From: Budvicia diplopodorum
GTDB taxonomy: Bacteria > Pseudomonadota > Gammaproteobacteria > Enterobacterales > Enterobacteriaceae
Length of the DNA: 64,000 nt
Assembly (NCBI RefSeq): GCF_009800925.1
Contig: NZ_WOYF01000011.1
Coordinates: 1 to 64,000 of the forward strand
Direction of reading: 5' to 3'
A program made the position numbers and the translations under genes. Positions 51,326 to 64,000 of this stretch are shown here, one piece after another (positions within the stretch are counted from its first letter, which is position 1; each line of letters begins with the position of its first letter). The notes beneath the pieces were generated by a model that had not been told where the DNA came from, did no database searches, and saw nothing but the letters and a program-made list of their open reading frames with translations.

Positions 51326-51358
51326 AAGAAGGGCACCAATAGGAGCCCTTCTTTTTTT
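51326..51358 (+). terminator. Terminator of der
   Basis: Perfect 9-bp stem AAGAAGGGC/GCCCTTCTT with a 10-nt loop and five more T residues. Its tail overlaps the stop codon of the convergent antiporter gene. Confidence 0.88.
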
Positions 51359-53150
51359 ATCTCTGAACCGCTTCCGGCTCGGCCGGTTTATGTTTCGTGA
51401 AATCGTCAGAATAAATATCAGACGGATGGTGGCCCGGCTCTTCGTTATCAGCCTCAGCCTCAGGCTGAACTGACATCGATTCATCTTTACGCAGTGAATC
51501 AACCAGTTCAGACACCTGCTCATCAGCAACGCCCAATACTTTTAGCGCTTCAGCACCAATATGCAGGCTACTTTCCAGCGTTTCTACCACCACCCAGTTT
51601 GCACCGGCTTCGAGCAGCTTATCTTTGAGCTCTAGATCTAAAACTCTGGCCAGTATTTTCACCATGGGGTAGAGCATTCGTAGCGTAGATACCGCACGCA
51701 GTGCGCTGGTGCTGTGGTCGATGGAGACAATCACCATTTGGGCTTGTTCAACGCCGATCACGTTAAGCAGCTTTGGATCGGTAATATCACCAAAATAGGC
51801 GGGAACGCCTGCTTTTTGAGCCTTCCTGACCACCTCGGGATTTTTTTCTATCACGATATGCGGAATAGCTGAATCCTGAAGCATCTGGGCTAGTACATAG
51901 CCGGTATCACCATAGCCTGCAACTACAACTCTGGCTTGGTGGGCCGTTTGATCCGGCCTCAGGCTTGGGTCTACGTCTGCTTTAACGTAGCGTTTAGTCA
52001 GATTACATCCAAAGGTATACAGGCTTTGTGTGAAGGCCATACTGACGGAAATAACGCCAATACCCATGATAAAGGTTCCATCGTCAATAACGGCGAATGC
52101 TTTTGCTACGCCAAACAGGACAAATCCAAACTCACCGCCCTGACACAGCAAGAAAGCGATTTTAGTTGAAGCCTCTTTAGACGCGCCAAATAGCAACGAG
52201 AGTACGAACAGTACCGCTATCTTAATGGCCAAAACGACGGCAACGTGCATGGTAAACAGGAGCGGCGTTTGTGCCAGCGTGGCAAAATCGATAGACATGC
52301 CGACGGAGATGAAGAAAATGCTCATTAACAGGCTTTTCACTGACTCTACGCTGGCGTGAATTTGGAAACCATACTTAGAGGTAGAGAGCATCATACCCAT
52401 AATAAAGGCACCCAGCGCCATCGACAAACCGAAGTGATCCATCACGTAGGCTGCCAGCATAACGGCAAACATCACAAATAAGGCGAAGCTTTCGCGGTAG
52501 CCATTTTTAGCCATACGGTTCAGTACCCACGGAACCACAACACGGCCAAAAATAATAACTAATAGTAATGCGCCGATAACCGAGATGGTTTGTAGCCACA
52601 TTGGGGAATCATCGGGCAGAACGGAAATTTTATCAGAAAGCAGAGGGACTAAAGCCAATAGTGGAACAATAGCCAGATCTTGCATCAGCAATATAGCGAA
52701 ACCGATTTTGCCATGTTCACTGGAAAACTCATTGCGTTCCTGAAGTATCTGAATAACGAAGGCCGTTGACGACAGCGCTAAGGTTAGGCCGATAATCACA
52801 GCCGCATTCACGTTATTGTTAAACAGATAGAAATAGCCGCCAATAGCCGCACCGCTAAGCAATATCTGCCAAGAACCTAAGCCAAATACCACTTTACGCA
52901 TTGCCCAAAGGCGCTTCGGTTGCATTTCCAGGCCGATGATAAACAGTAGCAAAACAATACCAAATTCAGAAAAATGCAGTATTTGCCCGACGTGCTCCTT
53001 AAGAATCACCTGACCGGGCGTATGGGGCCCGATGATGACACCGGTGATTAATAAACCCAGAATCGAACCTAATCCGATTTTCTTAGACAGGGTAACGGCA
53101 ATGGCAGCAACAAACAAAATGATGACGAGTAACAGTAGAAGATCATTCAT
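51357..53150 (-). CDS. CPA2 monovalent cation:proton antiporter (Kef-type) with RCK domain
   Basis: Inner-membrane K+ or Na+/H+ antiporter. The 597-residue protein has about 12 membrane helices (residues 1-380) including the conserved LLLFIIGLEM and LALSSTAFVIQIL segments. A cytosolic RCK/TrkA-N domain has a Rossmann nucleotide motif VVVAGYGDTGYVLAQML (about residue 408). An acidic, hydrophilic tail ends the chain. Size fits KefB/KefC, but I see no adjacent kefF/kefG-type flavoprotein, so glutathione gating is not assured. E. coli has no antiporter between der and yfgJ. Confidence 0.88.
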   Translation of the reverse strand: MNDLLLLLVIILFVAAIAVTLSKKIGLGSILGLLITGVIIGPHTPGQVILKEHVGQILHFSEFGIVLLLFIIGLEMQPKRLWAMRKVVFGLGSWQILLSGAAIGGYFYLFNNNVNAAVIIGLTLALSSTAFVIQILQERNEFSSEHGKIGFAILLMQDLAIVPLLALVPLLSDKISVLPDDSPMWLQTISVIGALLLVIIFGRVVVPWVLNRMAKNGYRESFALFVMFAVMLAAYVMDHFGLSMALGAFIMGMMLSTSKYGFQIHASVESVKSLLMSIFFISVGMSIDFATLAQTPLLFTMHVAVVLAIKIAVLFVLSLLFGASKEASTKIAFLLCQGGEFGFVLFGVAKAFAVIDDGTFIMGIGVISVSMAFTQSLYTFGCNLTKRYVKADVDPSLRPDQTAHQARVVVAGYGDTGYVLAQMLQDSAIPHIVIEKNPEVVRKAQKAGVPAYFGDITDPKLLNVIGVEQAQMVIVSIDHSTSALRAVSTLRMLYPMVKILARVLDLELKDKLLEAGANWVVVETLESSLHIGAEALKVLGVADEQVSELVDSLRKDESMSVQPEAEADNEEPGHHPSDIYSDDFTKHKPAEPEAVQR

Positions 53151-53921: not shown

Positions 53922-54149
53922 ATGGATGCCTTTTGTCCCAAATGCCATCAGTTACTGCTTTGGCAGCAAGGGGATTTTTATCGTTGTGAAACATGCGGTA
54001 AACGTTACCTACAGATAGCCCCTTGTCCCGAATGCCAGAACCCGCTACAAAAGATGCAGGCCTGCGGTGCCGTTGATTATTTTTGTCAGCATGGCCACGG
54101 TCTGATATCAAAAAAGCGATTGGATTTTCACTATGTTGAACAAGGCTAA
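53922..54149 (+). CDS. yfgJ: Zinc-ribbon protein YfgJ
   Basis: Small protein of unknown function with two zinc ribbons. The 75-residue product has CPKC and CETC in the first half, and CPEC with the conserved ACGAVDYFCQHGHGLISKKR at the end, identical in part to E. coli YfgJ (71 residues). GGGAG precedes the ATG. In E. coli yfgJ lies between der and xseA; here an antiporter precedes it and a chaperone cassette follows. Confidence 0.92.
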   Translation: MDAFCPKCHQLLLWQQGDFYRCETCGKRYLQIAPCPECQNPLQKMQACGAVDYFCQHGHGLISKKRLDFHYVEQG

Positions 54150-54229: not shown

Positions 54230-56110
54230 ATGGATAATTCTTCATTTTCTCAAGACCCTTCTTCTACCGCTCAGTTTTGCTCTGCGGGCGTTGATCTCAG
54301 TGGATTAATGCAGGTGTTGAGTAAGCACCTCTATTCTACGCCGATGGTGGCTTTGCGTGAATTGGTGCAAAACTCACACGACTCAATAGTTCGCCGGCGG
54401 ATTGAACATCACGGTCAGCCTGATTGTGGGCGAATTCAGGTTATTGGTGACGTTAAAAATGGTCTAATTCGCATTATTGATAACGGAGCCGGGCTGACTG
54501 AAGGTGAAATTCATGCTTATTTAGCGACGGTGGGCGTTGGCTATACCCGTACCTTACGTCAGCAGGATAGCGAAACCGGCCTGATTGGTATGTTTGGTCT
54601 CGGGTTTCTGTCGGCATTTGTGCTGGCAAAACAGGTTATCGTTACCACCACCTCTTATCAACAGCCCGAACAGGGATGGCGATATCTTTCCAGCAACGGT
54701 GAAAAATATTCGACGGAACCGGTTCCTGCCCGGGAGAACGGTACTGAAGTTACTCTGCTATTGCGTGATGAATTTAGCCATTTAGCCAGCGAGAAAGTGC
54801 TGAATGATATTCTCCGGCGTTACTGTATTTTACTGCGTGAGCCTATTTTTGTCGGTCAGGCTCCTGAACCAATCAACCCTGATTTACCTCCGTGGCGCAG
54901 AGAGGCAAATGTAGCCGTTCATCCTATTCAGGATCGCAGACAGCGTTTGGAATTCGCTGCGCATTTTGAAGAAAATTTTGAGCCGATTTGCACTGTCCCT
55001 GTGATATCTGACGCAAAAAGTGATGCCGTTGGTATGCTTTGGGTTCAGGATGGTTCAACCTACGGCACCAGCGATAATCGCAATTTGTCGATTTTCCTGC
55101 GCGGCATGCTATTAGATGACGATGCCCGTGATTTATTACCTCCGTGGGCCGGGTTTATCGGCGGTGTCATTGAGTCAAATAAACTAACGCCAACCGCCAG
55201 CCGCGAAGATTTACAGCGTGATAGCCACTATTTTGCAGTGCAGTACGCCCTGAGTGAGTCATTGATTCATGGACTGGCGGAGATTGCCCTCCGACAGCCT
55301 GAAGTATGGCGCCGGATCATTGTTCGTCACAATGAAACGCTGCTTGGCGCTGCGCTGTGCGATGAGCGTTTATTTGACCTGTTGATTGATACGATTAAGG
55401 TTCCAACCTCTCAGGGTGATTTACGCGCTCAGGATTTACGTTCTAAAGGGGCTATTCATGTCATTCTGGATGCCAAAGAGGGTTTTGAGGAAACGCTATT
55501 TCAGGCTTTAGGCGTTCCAGTGGCCTATGGCGATCGCTATGCGGTAGTACCATTCTTGCGGCGCTGGGCAGTGGCTAAAGGCTGCCAATTGGTTGAGCTG
55601 GGCACGAATGCCGGTAATAAGCAGCTGTTTCGGCTAGAGGAGCTACCGGCTAACGAAAGTGAGTGGTTGCTCTCGGTATTGGGTGACGGAGAGAAGCTGA
55701 TAGCTTCCCGCTTTGATCCGGCTGAACTGCCGCTGGTTGTGGTACATGACCGCGAGGCCGAATTGAAAAAACGCCTTGAGGACGACGAAAGCGACAAGCG
55801 AATTTCAGTCGCGGCGCTGCATCTCGCCCGACAATTTACCGCTAAAATCGCCGTAACCAACACCCGGCAACTTTATATCAATCTAAATAACCCCGCAGTA
55901 AACGCGCTGCTGGAAGGGTTTCGTCAGCATCACGCTGGTTTAGACGCCGCTGCCCGCATGCTTAAAGCACTAAAAGTGATTATGTCGAGCCGTGGCAGCC
56001 AAACTCAGGCGATGGCTCTTAACCGCGCACTGTCTGATTTCAGCCAGCTCATCCCCCAAATGCTTGCTCGGCCTGTAGATGTGTTTCCGGGGCACGATGA
56101 GAGTAAGTAA
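54230..56110 (+). CDS. HSP90-type GHKL ATPase (HtpG paralogue)
   Basis: 626-residue protein built like HtpG (624 residues in E. coli) but clearly divergent. The N-terminal ATPase has the N-box ALRELVQNSHDSI (E44, N48, D51), the ATP-lid Asp in IIDNGAGLT (D84) and the glycine segment GLIGMFGLGFLSAF. The middle domain keeps the catalytic-loop signature SREDLQRD, where HtpG has SRE. The C-terminal region is less conserved. There is no signal peptide, so it is cytoplasmic. Client and partners are unknown; the next gene encodes a TPR protein 73 nt downstream on the same strand, reminiscent of HSP90/TPR co-chaperone pairs in eukaryotes (inference). Confidence 0.85.
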   Translation: MDNSSFSQDPSSTAQFCSAGVDLSGLMQVLSKHLYSTPMVALRELVQNSHDSIVRRRIEHHGQPDCGRIQVIGDVKNGLIRIIDNGAGLTEGEIHAYLATVGVGYTRTLRQQDSETGLIGMFGLGFLSAFVLAKQVIVTTTSYQQPEQGWRYLSSNGEKYSTEPVPARENGTEVTLLLRDEFSHLASEKVLNDILRRYCILLREPIFVGQAPEPINPDLPPWRREANVAVHPIQDRRQRLEFAAHFEENFEPICTVPVISDAKSDAVGMLWVQDGSTYGTSDNRNLSIFLRGMLLDDDARDLLPPWAGFIGGVIESNKLTPTASREDLQRDSHYFAVQYALSESLIHGLAEIALRQPEVWRRIIVRHNETLLGAALCDERLFDLLIDTIKVPTSQGDLRAQDLRSKGAIHVILDAKEGFEETLFQALGVPVAYGDRYAVVPFLRRWAVAKGCQLVELGTNAGNKQLFRLEELPANESEWLLSVLGDGEKLIASRFDPAELPLVVVHDREAELKKRLEDDESDKRISVAALHLARQFTAKIAVTNTRQLYINLNNPAVNALLEGFRQHHAGLDAAARMLKALKVIMSSRGSQTQAMALNRALSDFSQLIPQMLARPVDVFPGHDESK

Positions 56111-56183
56111 CTACTCTCAAATTTGAAATCGCACGGCTGCCCGCGGAAGGTGGGTATCAATAAAGCTAATGACAGGATAACAA

Positions 56184-58499
56184 ATGGATATTTGGAACTG
56201 GGTTAATAAATTAGAAGACGATCTGAAAGCAGCCGGGCAAGGTGAGGCTGCCCGGATCATCGATAGGTTCACGGATGACGTTGCAGAGTTGAATATCGAT
56301 AAAGCCGACGCCTTATTTCCTGAGGTACTGGCGCTGAGCCGAAGTCTGAAAAACCCATGGCTGGAGGTATTTGTTCGCCACTGGGACTTGCGTAACCGCG
56401 TTGGCAGTCGCCTTGAAGGAGAAGCCGCGCTGGCGGCCTCGGTTGAGCTATTTGAGTTTGCCCATCGTCCTGAAACTATGGAATGCCCGCAGTCGGTGTG
56501 CGTGACGCAGGATCTGGCCGGCTGTTATGCCAACATTGACGGTCCGGGCTGGGTAAATGAACGTATTGCGGTGTGTGAAGAGACATTGGCGCGGATCGAC
56601 ACCAGTTGGAACTGTTTTCACTGCCTTTCGTGTGAATATGCCGAAGCGCTGCTTGACGACGGCCACGCTGACGATGCGCTGACATTTTTACGTCAGCAGG
56701 AAGAAAAAGTCACTACCACGACCTCCGATGACTGCCTGTCTATCCATAACTTTCAGATTAAAACCCTGCTGAATATGGCGCGTTATTCTGACGCAATGGA
56801 ACTGATTGAAAAAACGGATGAAGTCGCAAAGTCTTACCCATGGCAGAAAAACCGCCAGTTTCGCAACCTGCTAAAGGCCCGATGTCTGGCAGGGTTAGGC
56901 CGTGATGACGAAGCGTTAGAAGCCATTCCCGCATGGTCAGCTCTGGTTCCTGAATTCTATATGGATTGGACCGATGCCAATAAGCTGCTGCTAAAGAACT
57001 CGCCGGATAAAAATACTTGGCAGCTGGGCGGCCTGATTCAAAAAATGTTAGATCACGTGAGTAGCGTTGGCGCCCACCGGCATACCATCACGCTGGCCGT
57101 TTGGCATGCTCAACTGGCTCTGGCCCGCGGCGCGGTATGGACTGCACGGCGTTCGCTGGATATTGGTTATCAGCATCTACCTAAGTTAAATAAGGTTCGG
57201 GGCGCAGATTTACTCTTAGACAGCCTAAAGCTTGCCATCGAGCAGGCTAATGACAATACCCGTTTGCCGGTGCCTGCAGATCGGCTTCTGAGCTGGCTGG
57301 AACAACGGACCGGTGAGGATGAGTCGCGTAATCCGGAAGAGGAGGCCGAGTGGCTAGTACAAGCCTCTCTGGAGCGGCCTGATGATGAAGATTTGATTGA
57401 AATGGCATCATCAGCGCTAGTGGCCTGCGGCGCAATGACTCAGGCTAAAACGTTACTCTGGCAGTACGTTTCGACGCATCCGTCTGTAGAGTCAGCGCTT
57501 GCTTACCGGCTGCTGGATATCCTGCTGGATGATAAATTGGACCCTCAGAGTCAGGCTGAAATTGTCAGGCTGTCCGACATATATCAGCCAATGTTACCTG
57601 CCGTAGCGCTGTGGTGCCTGATTAAGCAGGCGCAGCATCGGGAAAACTGGTCTGAAGTCGAACGGCTGTGTAAGCAAATGATTGAGGCTGCGCCGGAATA
57701 TCGCGGCCCACGTATGCTGCTGGCTGAAGCATCGATGAACCAAAAGTCATTTCAACAGGCTATCGAATGTTATCAGCAACTGGCTAAGCAGCTGGACGAC
57801 CCGAGCAATACCCTTTGGGATTTAATGACCGCGGCCAGCGCTGCCGAACGTTGGGATTTAGTGCGTGAAACGGCCGAACGGCTGGATATCAAGCTGGCGC
57901 CGGGTGAAGGGGAAATTAATGAAGATTGGGGCTGGGTTCGTTTACGTATAAAAGACCGTGACGAAGAGGTTGAATATTACGGTCAGTTTATTGGCCCTGT
58001 AACGGCCAGAGTTATGCAATTGGCGGCTCCGAACGGTACGCAATGCTTTAATGACGTGGTGGTTATTGATGCCGGGATGTTGGAAAACCCGCCGGAAGAT
58101 GAAGAGGAACGTAAAGAGTACACCGCGGTTTATCGGGTGGTACATACCTTAAAACGAGGGAATTTCGGCGATAGCTGGTTTGTCGATGGCGTAATGCCAA
58201 CCGAAGAGCAGTATCAAACTTTTGTTGATGCTATCGAGCAGCTTGGGTGGCAAATTCGCATCAGAAGTTCGGCCGATTATCAGGTTAGTGACGCACAGGA
58301 TCCCGATGGTGAACCGCTGGATGGCATCTATTTTTATCTGGCTGCGCCGGAAAATGTGACTCCGGCAGAAATTAACGCCAAAATGTGGGCGTTAACCCAG
58401 AACTGGCAGCACGATTGGTGTTGGTTGACTTTGGCAGAGGAAGCCGATGCCGCGGATGTAGAAAGGCATCGGGGAGTGGTTGACCGTTATAGCCTATAA
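56184..58499 (+). CDS. Large TPR protein with N-terminal Cys cluster, HSP90-cassette partner
   Basis: 771-residue cytoplasmic protein of unknown function. Most of the chain up to about residue 570 is alpha-helical with TPR-like repeats (for example WCLIKQAQHRENWSEVERLCKQM and ASMNQKSFQQAIECYQQLAKQ). Near the N terminus seven Cys are grouped: C101, C106, C114, C131, and C144-x2-C147-x2-C150, which could bind a metal. The last 190 or so residues form a separate mixed alpha/beta domain (from GWVRLRIKDRDEEVEYYGQF onward) that I do not recognise. A ribosome site (GACAGGATAAC) lies before the ATG. It forms a cassette with the HSP90-type gene and converges on xseA. Confidence 0.8.
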   Translation: MDIWNWVNKLEDDLKAAGQGEAARIIDRFTDDVAELNIDKADALFPEVLALSRSLKNPWLEVFVRHWDLRNRVGSRLEGEAALAASVELFEFAHRPETMECPQSVCVTQDLAGCYANIDGPGWVNERIAVCEETLARIDTSWNCFHCLSCEYAEALLDDGHADDALTFLRQQEEKVTTTTSDDCLSIHNFQIKTLLNMARYSDAMELIEKTDEVAKSYPWQKNRQFRNLLKARCLAGLGRDDEALEAIPAWSALVPEFYMDWTDANKLLLKNSPDKNTWQLGGLIQKMLDHVSSVGAHRHTITLAVWHAQLALARGAVWTARRSLDIGYQHLPKLNKVRGADLLLDSLKLAIEQANDNTRLPVPADRLLSWLEQRTGEDESRNPEEEAEWLVQASLERPDDEDLIEMASSALVACGAMTQAKTLLWQYVSTHPSVESALAYRLLDILLDDKLDPQSQAEIVRLSDIYQPMLPAVALWCLIKQAQHRENWSEVERLCKQMIEAAPEYRGPRMLLAEASMNQKSFQQAIECYQQLAKQLDDPSNTLWDLMTAASAAERWDLVRETAERLDIKLAPGEGEINEDWGWVRLRIKDRDEEVEYYGQFIGPVTARVMQLAAPNGTQCFNDVVVIDAGMLENPPEDEEERKEYTAVYRVVHTLKRGNFGDSWFVDGVMPTEEQYQTFVDAIEQLGWQIRIRSSADYQVSDAQDPDGEPLDGIYFYLAAPENVTPAEINAKMWALTQNWQHDWCWLTLAEEADAADVERHRGVVDRYSL

Positions 58500-58553: not shown

Positions 58554-58585
58554 ACCTCTGCCGCTATATTCGGTAGGGGTCTTTT
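58554..58585 (+). terminator. Terminator after the HSP90/TPR cassette
   Basis: 10-bp stem ACCTCTGCCG/CGGTAGGGGT (with G-T pairs) and a 7-nt loop, then CTTTT, overlapping the end of convergent xseA. It would close the cassette transcript. Confidence 0.55.
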
Positions 58586-59945
58586 ATGACAAAATTTTTG
58601 TAGATTTTGTCACATGGTTCACGCTGCTTTCTACCCATCCGTCGCTCAGCCGGGTTTTTAGTACATCACCGGCTTTCACCTGTTTAGTCTTTTTCAGCGC
58701 GGTTCCGTCCGGTGCGCTGGTCACGCTGTAGCCTCTGGCGAGCGTTGCTAGCGGGCTAACGGCTTCCAGCTGTGAATAGCTAATGCTAAAGCGCTGTTTG
58801 GCTGCGTTCATTTGGCGTTCTAGCGCCTGTTGTAGTTGATACTGGCGCTGCTGTAGCAACTGCTGATAACGATGAATACGCGCCTGCGGCTGGGTTTGGG
58901 CTAAACGTTGTTGTAAACGCTCGGCCTGACGAATGTTTAGCCGTAGCTGGGTCTGGATACCATCTTCTAAACGGTTGTGTAATTTTAGTAACGCCGTTTG
59001 CTGGCGTGACAGACGTAGCTGTGGGTGCTGTTGCTGTAACCGGCTGTCTAAGCGGTTAACGATTTGGTGCTGGCGAGAGAGGAAATAATCCATTGCCATT
59101 TCCAGCCGCTGTTGCTGAGACTGTAAACGGCGCACCAGTTCTAGCTGATTACGGCTGACCATTTCAGCCGCCGCGGACGGCGTGGGTGCCCGTAAATCGG
59201 CGACGAAATCAGCAATAGTCACGTCGGTTTCATGGCCAACGGCGCTGACTACCGGGATTCGGCTGTTAAAAATTGCTCTGGCGACTAGCTCTTCGTTAAA
59301 GCACCATAAATCTTCTAGCGATCCACCGCCGCGGCCAACAATGAGCACATCACACTCGTTACGCTGATTGGCCAGCTCAATGGTTTTAACTATTTGTAAG
59401 GTTGCATCCACACCCTGAACGGTCGTTGGATAAATCACTACCGGCAGCGAAGGATCGCGTCGCCGGAGGATCTGTAAAATATCATGCAGAGCAGCGCCAG
59501 ATTTTGAGGTAATAACGCCGATGCAGTTGGCCGGTGAAGGAAGAGAGCGTTTGCGCTGCGGGTCGAATAGCCCTTCTTCAGACAGCCGATGCTTTAACTG
59601 CTCAAAACGCTGCTGTAGCAGGCCATCTCCGGCTGGTTGCATACTTTCCGCAATGATTTGATAGTCGCCGCGTGGTTCATAAAGGGTAATGGTTGCCCGA
59701 ACTAAAACCTGCTGGCCATTTTGCGGCTGGAACGTGGTTTTGCGATTAGCGGTGCGAAACATCGCACAGCGCACCTGAGCCCGGTCATCTTTTAGCGTAA
59801 AGTACCAGTGGCCAGAAGACGGTTGAGATAAGTTTGATATCTCGGCTGAAATCCAGATCTGGCCCATCTCCATTTCCAATAGCTGACGGACCGTCTGATT
59901 CAGGCGGCTAACGGTGAAAATTGGGGGCGATGCTGGCGTTAACAT
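58584..59945 (-). CDS. xseA: Exodeoxyribonuclease VII large subunit
   Basis: Degrades single-stranded DNA from both ends together with XseB. The 453-residue product starts [17 protein letters not shown]. It has an OB-fold (residues 1-100), a catalytic domain with [25 protein letters not shown] and [25 protein letters not shown], then a long coiled coil rich in Gln/Leu/Arg and the C-terminal [11 protein letters not shown] segment. A frame reaching 60014 would add 23 unsupported residues. It is divergent from guaB. Confidence 0.96.
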
Positions 59946-60056
59946 GTGACGGAGATCAAACTCTAAAACAAAGACGTAATTTAGCGATACTACATAGGTG
60001 CACGGGCTAATCAAGTTTTATTTGAGAAATGTGTGGCGGCAGAGGGCTTGGCTCTG

Positions 60057-63682: not shown

Positions 63683-64000
63683 ATGTTTACTTTTATTGAG
63701 CTGCAAGGTTTCAGTAAGCGGCGGCAAGAATTGTTACCTGACGATGAATTTTGGGCTTTTCAGGAAGAGCTGATTAATAATCCTGAGGCCGGAGATACTA
63801 TTTCTGGTACCGGAGGTTTTCGTAAAATCCGCTGGAGTCGTCCGGGAATGGGAAAGTGCGGTGGTGTGCGGGTCATTTACTATAATGTGACAAGCAGAGG
63901 GCGTATCTATCTGGCTCTGATATATCCAAAGAATGAGCAGGATAATTTAACTGAAGGGCAGAAGAAAGCCCTTGAACAGTTATCTAATCAACTGACATAG
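63683..64000 (+). CDS. HigB2/RelE-family toxin of a type II toxin-antitoxin pair
   Basis: 105-residue mRNA interferase-like protein, complete, with its stop codon on the last three bases of the window. It closely resembles Vibrio HigB2: ELINNPEAGDTISGTGGFRKIRW, basic RPGMGKCGGVRVIYYN, and LALIYPKNEQDNLT are all typical. A GGGAG ribosome site precedes the ATG. In HigBA-type loci the toxin gene comes first, so the antitoxin (an Xre-type HTH protein) is expected immediately beyond the edge. The location after guaA fits a mobile or accessory segment. Confidence 0.9.
   Translation: MFTFIELQGFSKRRQELLPDDEFWAFQEELINNPEAGDTISGTGGFRKIRWSRPGMGKCGGVRVIYYNVTSRGRIYLALIYPKNEQDNLTEGQKKALEQLSNQLT

Follow-up and report, generated by a model that had tools for sequence, protein, structure and literature searches.

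A second-lineage Hsp90 and a candidate TPR cofactor form a conserved two-gene module in Budvicia diplopodorum and distant bacteria

The stretch of DNA analysed here, hereafter the window, comprises 64,000 nucleotides of Budvicia diplopodorum (assembly GCF_009800925.1, contig NZ_WOYF01000011.1, positions 1 to 64,000) and carries a cassette of two genes, the first encoding an Hsp90 distinct from HtpG and the second a large tetratricopeptide repeat (TPR) protein (Table 1). HSP90 works with TPR co-chaperones in eukaryotes. The module status of the bacterial pair is well supported, and we put at about 60% the probability that it consists of a complete Hsp90 of a second bacterial lineage and a dedicated TPR-solenoid cofactor made with it. 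Based on genomics, a co-chaperone role of the TPR protein is likely, and we infer co-transcription, a physical complex, a docking surface, a client and a cellular role. The two open reading frames (ORFs), described in a first-pass annotation made from the sequence alone, were re-checked and lie on the plus strand as reported, 73 nt apart. In the nearest genome, Budvicia aquatica DSM 5075, the arrangement is identical, with 88% identity for the Hsp90 and 83% for the TPR protein.

Three even genome samples were searched with both profiles, namely 299 Pseudomonadota genomes, 149 genomes of the family of G149 and 198 of the family of G184. In the Pseudomonadota sample both families were found in precisely two genomes, G000 and G149, whose scores stood far above all others; in the second sample the Hsp90 and the TPR protein occurred in the same nine genomes, and in the third in the same six. 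Together the samples held 16 positive genomes (one common to two samples) and no discordant one, and the genes were neighbours in every positive genome; Fisher's test, which takes no account of phylogeny, gave p about 3e-32. Rare co-occurrence, named in the first-pass annotation as the outcome that would speak against a module, was not what the samples held: the match was perfect in all three.

Adjacency gave the same picture. With the TPR profile, 80 loci were found among genome contigs, 57 outside Actinomycetota and 23 actinobacterial. At every one of the 57, including one cut by a contig end (L014), this Hsp90 lies directly upstream in the same order and on the same strand. The hosts are Budvicia, Escherichia, Superficieibacter, Phytobacter, Pseudomonas, Xanthomonas, Stenotrophomonas and other Lysobacteraceae, several Betaproteobacteria, Candidatus Parabeggiatoa and one metagenome-assembled genome of the Chloroflexi (Chloroflexota), so that the conserved adjacency in distant genera anticipated for a module extends from Budvicia to Chloroflexota. 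The two genes are separated by -4 to +122 nt. Of 5426 E. coli genomes, 248 have the pair; it is complete in all 248 and occupies a single chromosomal site in each, which in the strain examined lies between fdhD and yiiG. One of the 57 loci, that of Xanthomonas axonopodis DSM 3585 (L058, 4002-8322), has breaks in both genes, and the same joint decay was found in a second, related genome (G446:C256). The cassette occupies many unrelated genomic sites, its neighbours vary between genera, and no third gene recurred widely in an all-against-all neighbour comparison of 28 loci, in agreement with the proposal of a self-contained module. At one betaproteobacterial locus, a second TPR gene stands immediately behind the cassette (L049, 8280-9794).

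The first gene encodes a full-length Hsp90 with all catalytic residues; its structural model has the N, M and C domains, the last being a putative dimerisation domain. The AlphaFold2 (AF2) model, with a predicted local distance difference test (pLDDT) score of 80, aligned over 600+ columns to full-length HtpG, TRAP1 and Hsc82 in Foldseek (E about 1e-35). E44 and N48, whose catalytic role is established Hsp90 knowledge, as well as D84, G86, G88 and R325 are invariant across an alignment of 37 Hsp90s that includes canonical HtpG; the N-box, DNGAGLT and SREDL signatures had thus been correctly read as intact. The candidate assignment as an HtpG equivalog was rejected: NF003555 scored 183.5 bits (cut-off 371) and its match stops at residue 385. 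The NCBIfam model NF010683 ('HSP90 family protein', PRK14083) matched over the full length with 266 bits, which is nevertheless below its equivalog cut-off of 455, and profile alignment with a Streptomyces NF010683 member in hhalign covered 573 columns (E 2e-76, 27% identity). In a tree of 41 Hsp90s, the cassette proteins form their own clade (support 100), the NF010683 proteins form another (100), and a branch with support 100 parts HtpG from both; the order of the non-HtpG groups is unresolved in this tree and several branches are long. A canonical HtpG is present in the same genome as a separate gene on another contig (L002). A search against PHROGs returned generic Hsp90-like and topoisomerase matches for the ATPase and none for the TPR protein.

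The TPR fold of the partner is supported by Pfam, in which TPR_19 scored 35.6 bits (cut-off 25), and by an AF2 model with a mean pLDDT of 92.6, which shows a paired-helix solenoid at about residues 1-566 followed by an alpha/beta domain at 576-771. The latter domain, noted earlier as unrecognised, has remained so: no Pfam family fits it, and a PDB profile search with it yielded nothing below E 0.2. DUF4265 was considered and discarded, as the forward search matched 1 of 31 members (E 0.0055) and the reverse search gave E > 2. Foldseek with the whole TPR model found generic TPR solenoids only (template modelling score about 0.2). Among cassettes the TPR protein ranges from 362 to 783 aa with a constant N-terminal Cys region. 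At four Pseudomonas loci (L067, L068, L069, L072) it ends at ~362 residues and lacks the middle repeats and the C-terminal domain. The cassette at L067 adjoins guaA/guaB, as in Budvicia.

The N-terminal region of the TPR protein carries a Cys/His signature whose six residues are all kept in 66 of 66 Hsp90-linked homologues. In solo homologues, which have no Hsp90 gene beside them, H66, C106, C144 and C147 are absent (24 of 24), C101 alone being kept and in one case also C114. Altogether, 32 positions are conserved in the Hsp90-linked and absent in the solo homologues, and 23 of these fall within residues 43-172. This contrast suggests that the signature tracks Hsp90 linkage and points to the N-terminal repeats as the part of the protein that is coupled to Hsp90, with which the short Pseudomonas versions agree, keeping just the N-terminal half. 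The cysteine-rich N-terminal module could serve as a zinc or redox switch.

These features would fit the following mechanism. The first gene would provide an ATP-driven Hsp90 of the second bacterial lineage, coexisting with HtpG, and the second gene a dedicated TPR-solenoid cofactor produced along with it. The TPR protein would most likely use its cysteine-bearing N-terminal repeats to dock on the Hsp90, and the remaining solenoid, with the C-terminal alpha/beta domain where present, to bring a client or assembly to the chaperone. It would thereby act like a eukaryotic TPR co-chaperone without MEEVD-tail docking; such docking was looked for and rejected, the C-terminal Hsp90 tails being variable and none ending in MEEVD.

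A similar layout was found for the NF010683 proteins. Wherever NF010683 Hsp90s were inspected, in Actinomycetota, Listeria and Paenibacillus, a TPR-type gene comes next downstream (L244-L248, L279-L289), mostly within about 15 nt. A search of 198 Actinomycetota genomes gave nine matches above the NF010683 cut-off, and behind each of the nine a same-strand ORF begins -8 to +12 nt from the stop codon of the Hsp90 gene; this ORF is about 980-1020 aa long in seven cases and interrupted in two (L282, L284), the latter being left out of the Pfam scan. The layout recurs in three Streptomyces plasmid copies, in one further Streptosporangiales genome (L289), in Listeria, where the partner has 324 aa and a second copy exists, and in Paenibacillus, with a partner of 353 aa; partner sizes span about 320 to 1050 aa. 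Pfam detected TPRs in all scanned partners but that of Paenibacillus, several matches lying below the curated cut-off; the Paenibacillus partner gave a weak match to the TPR-like RPN7 alone. An alignment of 15 NF010683-linked TPR proteins displayed an invariant CxxC and another Cys in the same N-terminal region, and a low-scoring N-terminal profile alignment (probability 45%), a lead only, placed this CxxC in register with that of the window's TPR family. In G108 (Pseudomonadota), a divergent Hsp90 is followed by a TPR gene 1 nt downstream. On a Pseudanabaena plasmid (L010, 7950-12813), an 877-aa Hsp90-like protein has a TPR gene two genes downstream and a TIR-domain gene upstream. The CxxC/Cys signature was looked for in the TPR partners of G108 and Pseudanabaena and was absent. 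Canonical HtpG had a TPR neighbour of either family at 0 of 53 loci, in a crude test with short flanks. A broader reading, held tentatively and at somewhat less than even odds, is that an ancient second bacterial Hsp90 lineage, hsp90B/C-like, is as a rule paired with a next-gene TPR co-chaperone bearing a cysteine-rich docking module in Pseudomonadota, Actinomycetota, Bacillota and Chloroflexota. The names hsp90B and hsp90C belong to bacterial paralogues (PMC3708813), to one of which the cassette clade might correspond.

Several observations weigh against a dedicated Hsp90 cofactor or against its extension to other lineages. At the 23 actinobacterial loci (L066, L070, L071, L073-L092; Streptosporangiaceae and relatives) the TPR gene stands alone, and 4 of 10 searched genomes with a solo homologue have no Hsp90 match at all; the TPR protein can therefore act without Hsp90, and these solo, full-length homologues are likely to have an independent function. 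The Hsp90/TPR pairing put forward in the first-pass annotation is supported by all 57 loci outside Actinomycetota, and the TPR family as such is not strictly Hsp90-bound. The cysteine contrast is suggestive, not proof, because within the window's TPR family it reflects a single evolutionary split with one solo clade. The correlation of Hsp90 and TPR distance matrices (r = 0.99), in itself a point in favour of the module, partly follows from shared genome history. Homology of the window TPR protein with the NF010683 partners is not established (hhalign probability 45-89%), and the proposal of such homology was set aside, as the full-profile match (89%) covers a generic TPR stretch.

Hints on function come from the orthologous pair PA1068-PA1069 of P. 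aeruginosa (64% identity for the Hsp90, 48% for the TPR protein), which was identified by gene order (L007) and from PMC4053335 and adjoins bra and flg genes. PA1069 belongs to the genes that AmrZ binds and activates, together with algD, pelB, tssA1 and cdrA, covering alginate, Pel, the type VI secretion system and CdrA (PMC3946381). It is induced by calcium and/or biofilm growth and called operonic with the Hsp90 gene (PMC4053335), its expression differs among materials for adherent growth (PMC5541441), and the protein co-precipitates with the biofilm protein BatR (PMC13411936). Heat induction would be expected of a classical sigma-32 heat-shock chaperone; in P. aeruginosa, PA1069 expression falls about 4-fold at 46 C (PMC4957987). 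A search for functional studies of PA1068-PA1069 found none, only expression and co-immunoprecipitation list entries. Our best guess, drawn from this one species, is a chaperone module of a sessile or envelope programme rather than of heat shock or defence. The L007 record (NZ_CP131792) is an 847-kb P. aeruginosa 'plasmid' that holds chromosomal genes, flg and bra among them, along with the cassette; a split chromosome or an assembly problem may lie behind this.

The co-occurrence and adjacency data would also fit a TPR protein that is the dedicated client, one large solenoid that does the real work and is folded or kept active by the Hsp90. The solo Streptosporangiaceae homologues conserve the C-terminal domain best (35% to the cassette versions versus 22-30% elsewhere), and the TPR protein therefore has an activity of its own. 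Partner sizes, however, vary in both the cassette and the NF010683 groups while the N-terminal Cys region stays constant, so that a docking cofactor fits better than one client, and we consider the client explanation unlikely. As another alternative, the two proteins would share a pathway without touching each other, the TPR protein being a scaffold or regulator of an envelope or sessile programme and the Hsp90 acting on another protein of it. This is in line with AmrZ binding near and activating PA1069 alongside the four matrix and secretion genes (PMC3946381) and with the changes in biofilm, calcium and surface growth (PMC4053335, PMC5541441), yet no third gene accompanies the pair, whose transfer and loss in widely differing hosts always involve both genes, and the explanation seems rather improbable.

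A place in defence had been raised at the outset, and GHKL ATPases are known in defence loci. An anti-phage or other conflict system would unite a GHKL ATPase sensor with a TPR effector or regulator; the patchy distribution, as in E. coli, and the Pseudanabaena plasmid relative near a TIR gene and a methylase could be read in this way. The one similarity that PADLOC reported for the two proteins was nevertheless a weak GHKL match to TmtA (E 4e-4), and over ten neighbours it gave one weak dynamin-type match; the cassette neighbours are metabolic or signalling genes with no convincing defence match. Moreover, the cassette is not in viral contigs (the single 'phage' record matching the pair is a bacterial Salmonella contig), it keeps to one chromosomal site per E. 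coli genome, and no nuclease, toxin or membrane effector domain was found. Defence is accordingly unsupported by PADLOC and by the neighbours, and we hold it to be very improbable. In Phytobacter, a dynamin-family gene lies about 1.4 kb downstream of the cassette (L050, 9700-12042). Chance neighbourhood or hitch-hiking after horizontal transfer, to which the differing sites between genera might point, is effectively refuted by the absence of discordant genomes from the three even samples, by the adjacency at 57 of 57 loci and by the lack of such a neighbour at the 53 canonical HtpG loci. A dedicated cofactor of the second-lineage Hsp90 is the reading we prefer.

The features of the cassette and its immediate flanks are collected in Table 1. 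The hairpin behind the TPR gene, described earlier as terminator-like, is real: it folds at -15.1 kcal/mol (z = -3.3), and 0 of 200 shuffles were equally stable, though its U-tract is short. A terminator consensus scan gave sites no commoner than in shuffles, and a promoter scan did no better than shuffles. The upstream zinc-ribbon gene is overlapped in mechanical ORF lists by a spurious minus-strand ORF. Between der and this gene lies a KefC-like CPA2 antiporter gene (51357-53150, minus strand), which scores below the KefC and KefB equivalog cut-offs. A RelE/HigB-like toxin ORF, judged by eye, occupies 63683-64000 on the plus strand and continues past the end of the window.

Table 1. Features of the Hsp90/TPR cassette and its flanks in the window
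Feature	Position	Strand	Details and basis
Zinc-ribbon gene (upstream flank)	53922-54149	+	75 aa; many CxxC motifs; YfgJ-like by eye
Hsp90 gene (second Hsp90, relative of NF010683/PRK14083, distinct from HtpG)	54230-56110	+	626 aa
N-box RELVQN (E44/N48)	54359-54373	+	Invariant in 37-sequence alignment
DNGAGLT, ATP-binding (D84/G86/G88)	54479-54499	+	Invariant in 37-sequence alignment
GMFGLGF, glycine-rich ATP-lid	54587-54607	+	G120, F122, G123, G125 invariant in 37-sequence alignment
SREDL, middle-domain catalytic arginine R325	55199-55213	+	R325 invariant in 37-sequence alignment
TPR partner gene	56184-58499	+	771 aa; TPR_19 above Pfam cut-off
Cys/His signature of TPR protein (H66, C101, C106, C114, C144, C147)	56379-56624	+	Homologue alignment
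C-terminal alpha/beta domain of TPR protein, no known family	57909-58496	+	AF2 secondary structure; Pfam and PDB profiles negative
Terminator-like hairpin behind TPR gene	58554-58580	+	10-bp stem; folding and shuffles
xseA (downstream flank)	58584-60014	-	By sequence and position before guaB, guaA

We know of no dedicated TPR partner of canonical bacterial HtpG. According to the literature, no obligate co-chaperone of bacterial Hsp90 has been identified (PMC3708813), and bacteria have no orthologue of Hop, Aha1 or p23 (PMC8082187). No earlier description of the module was found in the open-access literature, a scope outside which most subscription papers fall. The label of a candidate undescribed cassette does not wholly apply at the level of its proteins: the ATPase is related to the known model NF010683, and PMC4053335 mentions the P. 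aeruginosa pair in passing as 'operonic with Hsp90'. These Hsp90 genes are currently annotated as 'HSP90 family protein', 'ATP-binding protein' or 'hypothetical protein', and the present reading would offer a first functional lead for them in Streptomyces, Listeria, Pseudomonas, Xanthomonas and some E. coli. Our results suggest that some bacterial Hsp90s have a dedicated helper of a kind long held to be eukaryotic. Under the broader reading, eukaryotes would not have invented TPR-assisted Hsp90 chaperoning, or it would have more than one origin. A bacterial Hsp90 lineage never without a TPR gene would provide a simple two-protein system for TPR-Hsp90 cooperation, its evolution and its clients.

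Among known systems, the NF010683/PRK14083 proteins of Streptomyces, Listeria and Paenibacillus come close, sharing full-length homology, the non-HtpG side of the tree and a TPR-type gene next door; the window Hsp90 differs in belonging to its own fully supported clade and in having a TPR partner of a different family, for which homology is not demonstrable. Canonical HtpG (hsp90A) has the same domain order, catalytic residues and size, whereas it shares only about 25% identity with the window Hsp90, is a separate gene and has no TPR neighbour. With the eukaryotic co-chaperones Hop, CHIP, FKBP51/52 and PP5 the cassette would have in common a TPR protein dedicated to Hsp90, a likeness drawn here from genomics, while it differs from them in the missing MEEVD tail of its Hsp90 and in a long solenoid, about 570 aa, whose N-terminal part bears the Cys signature.

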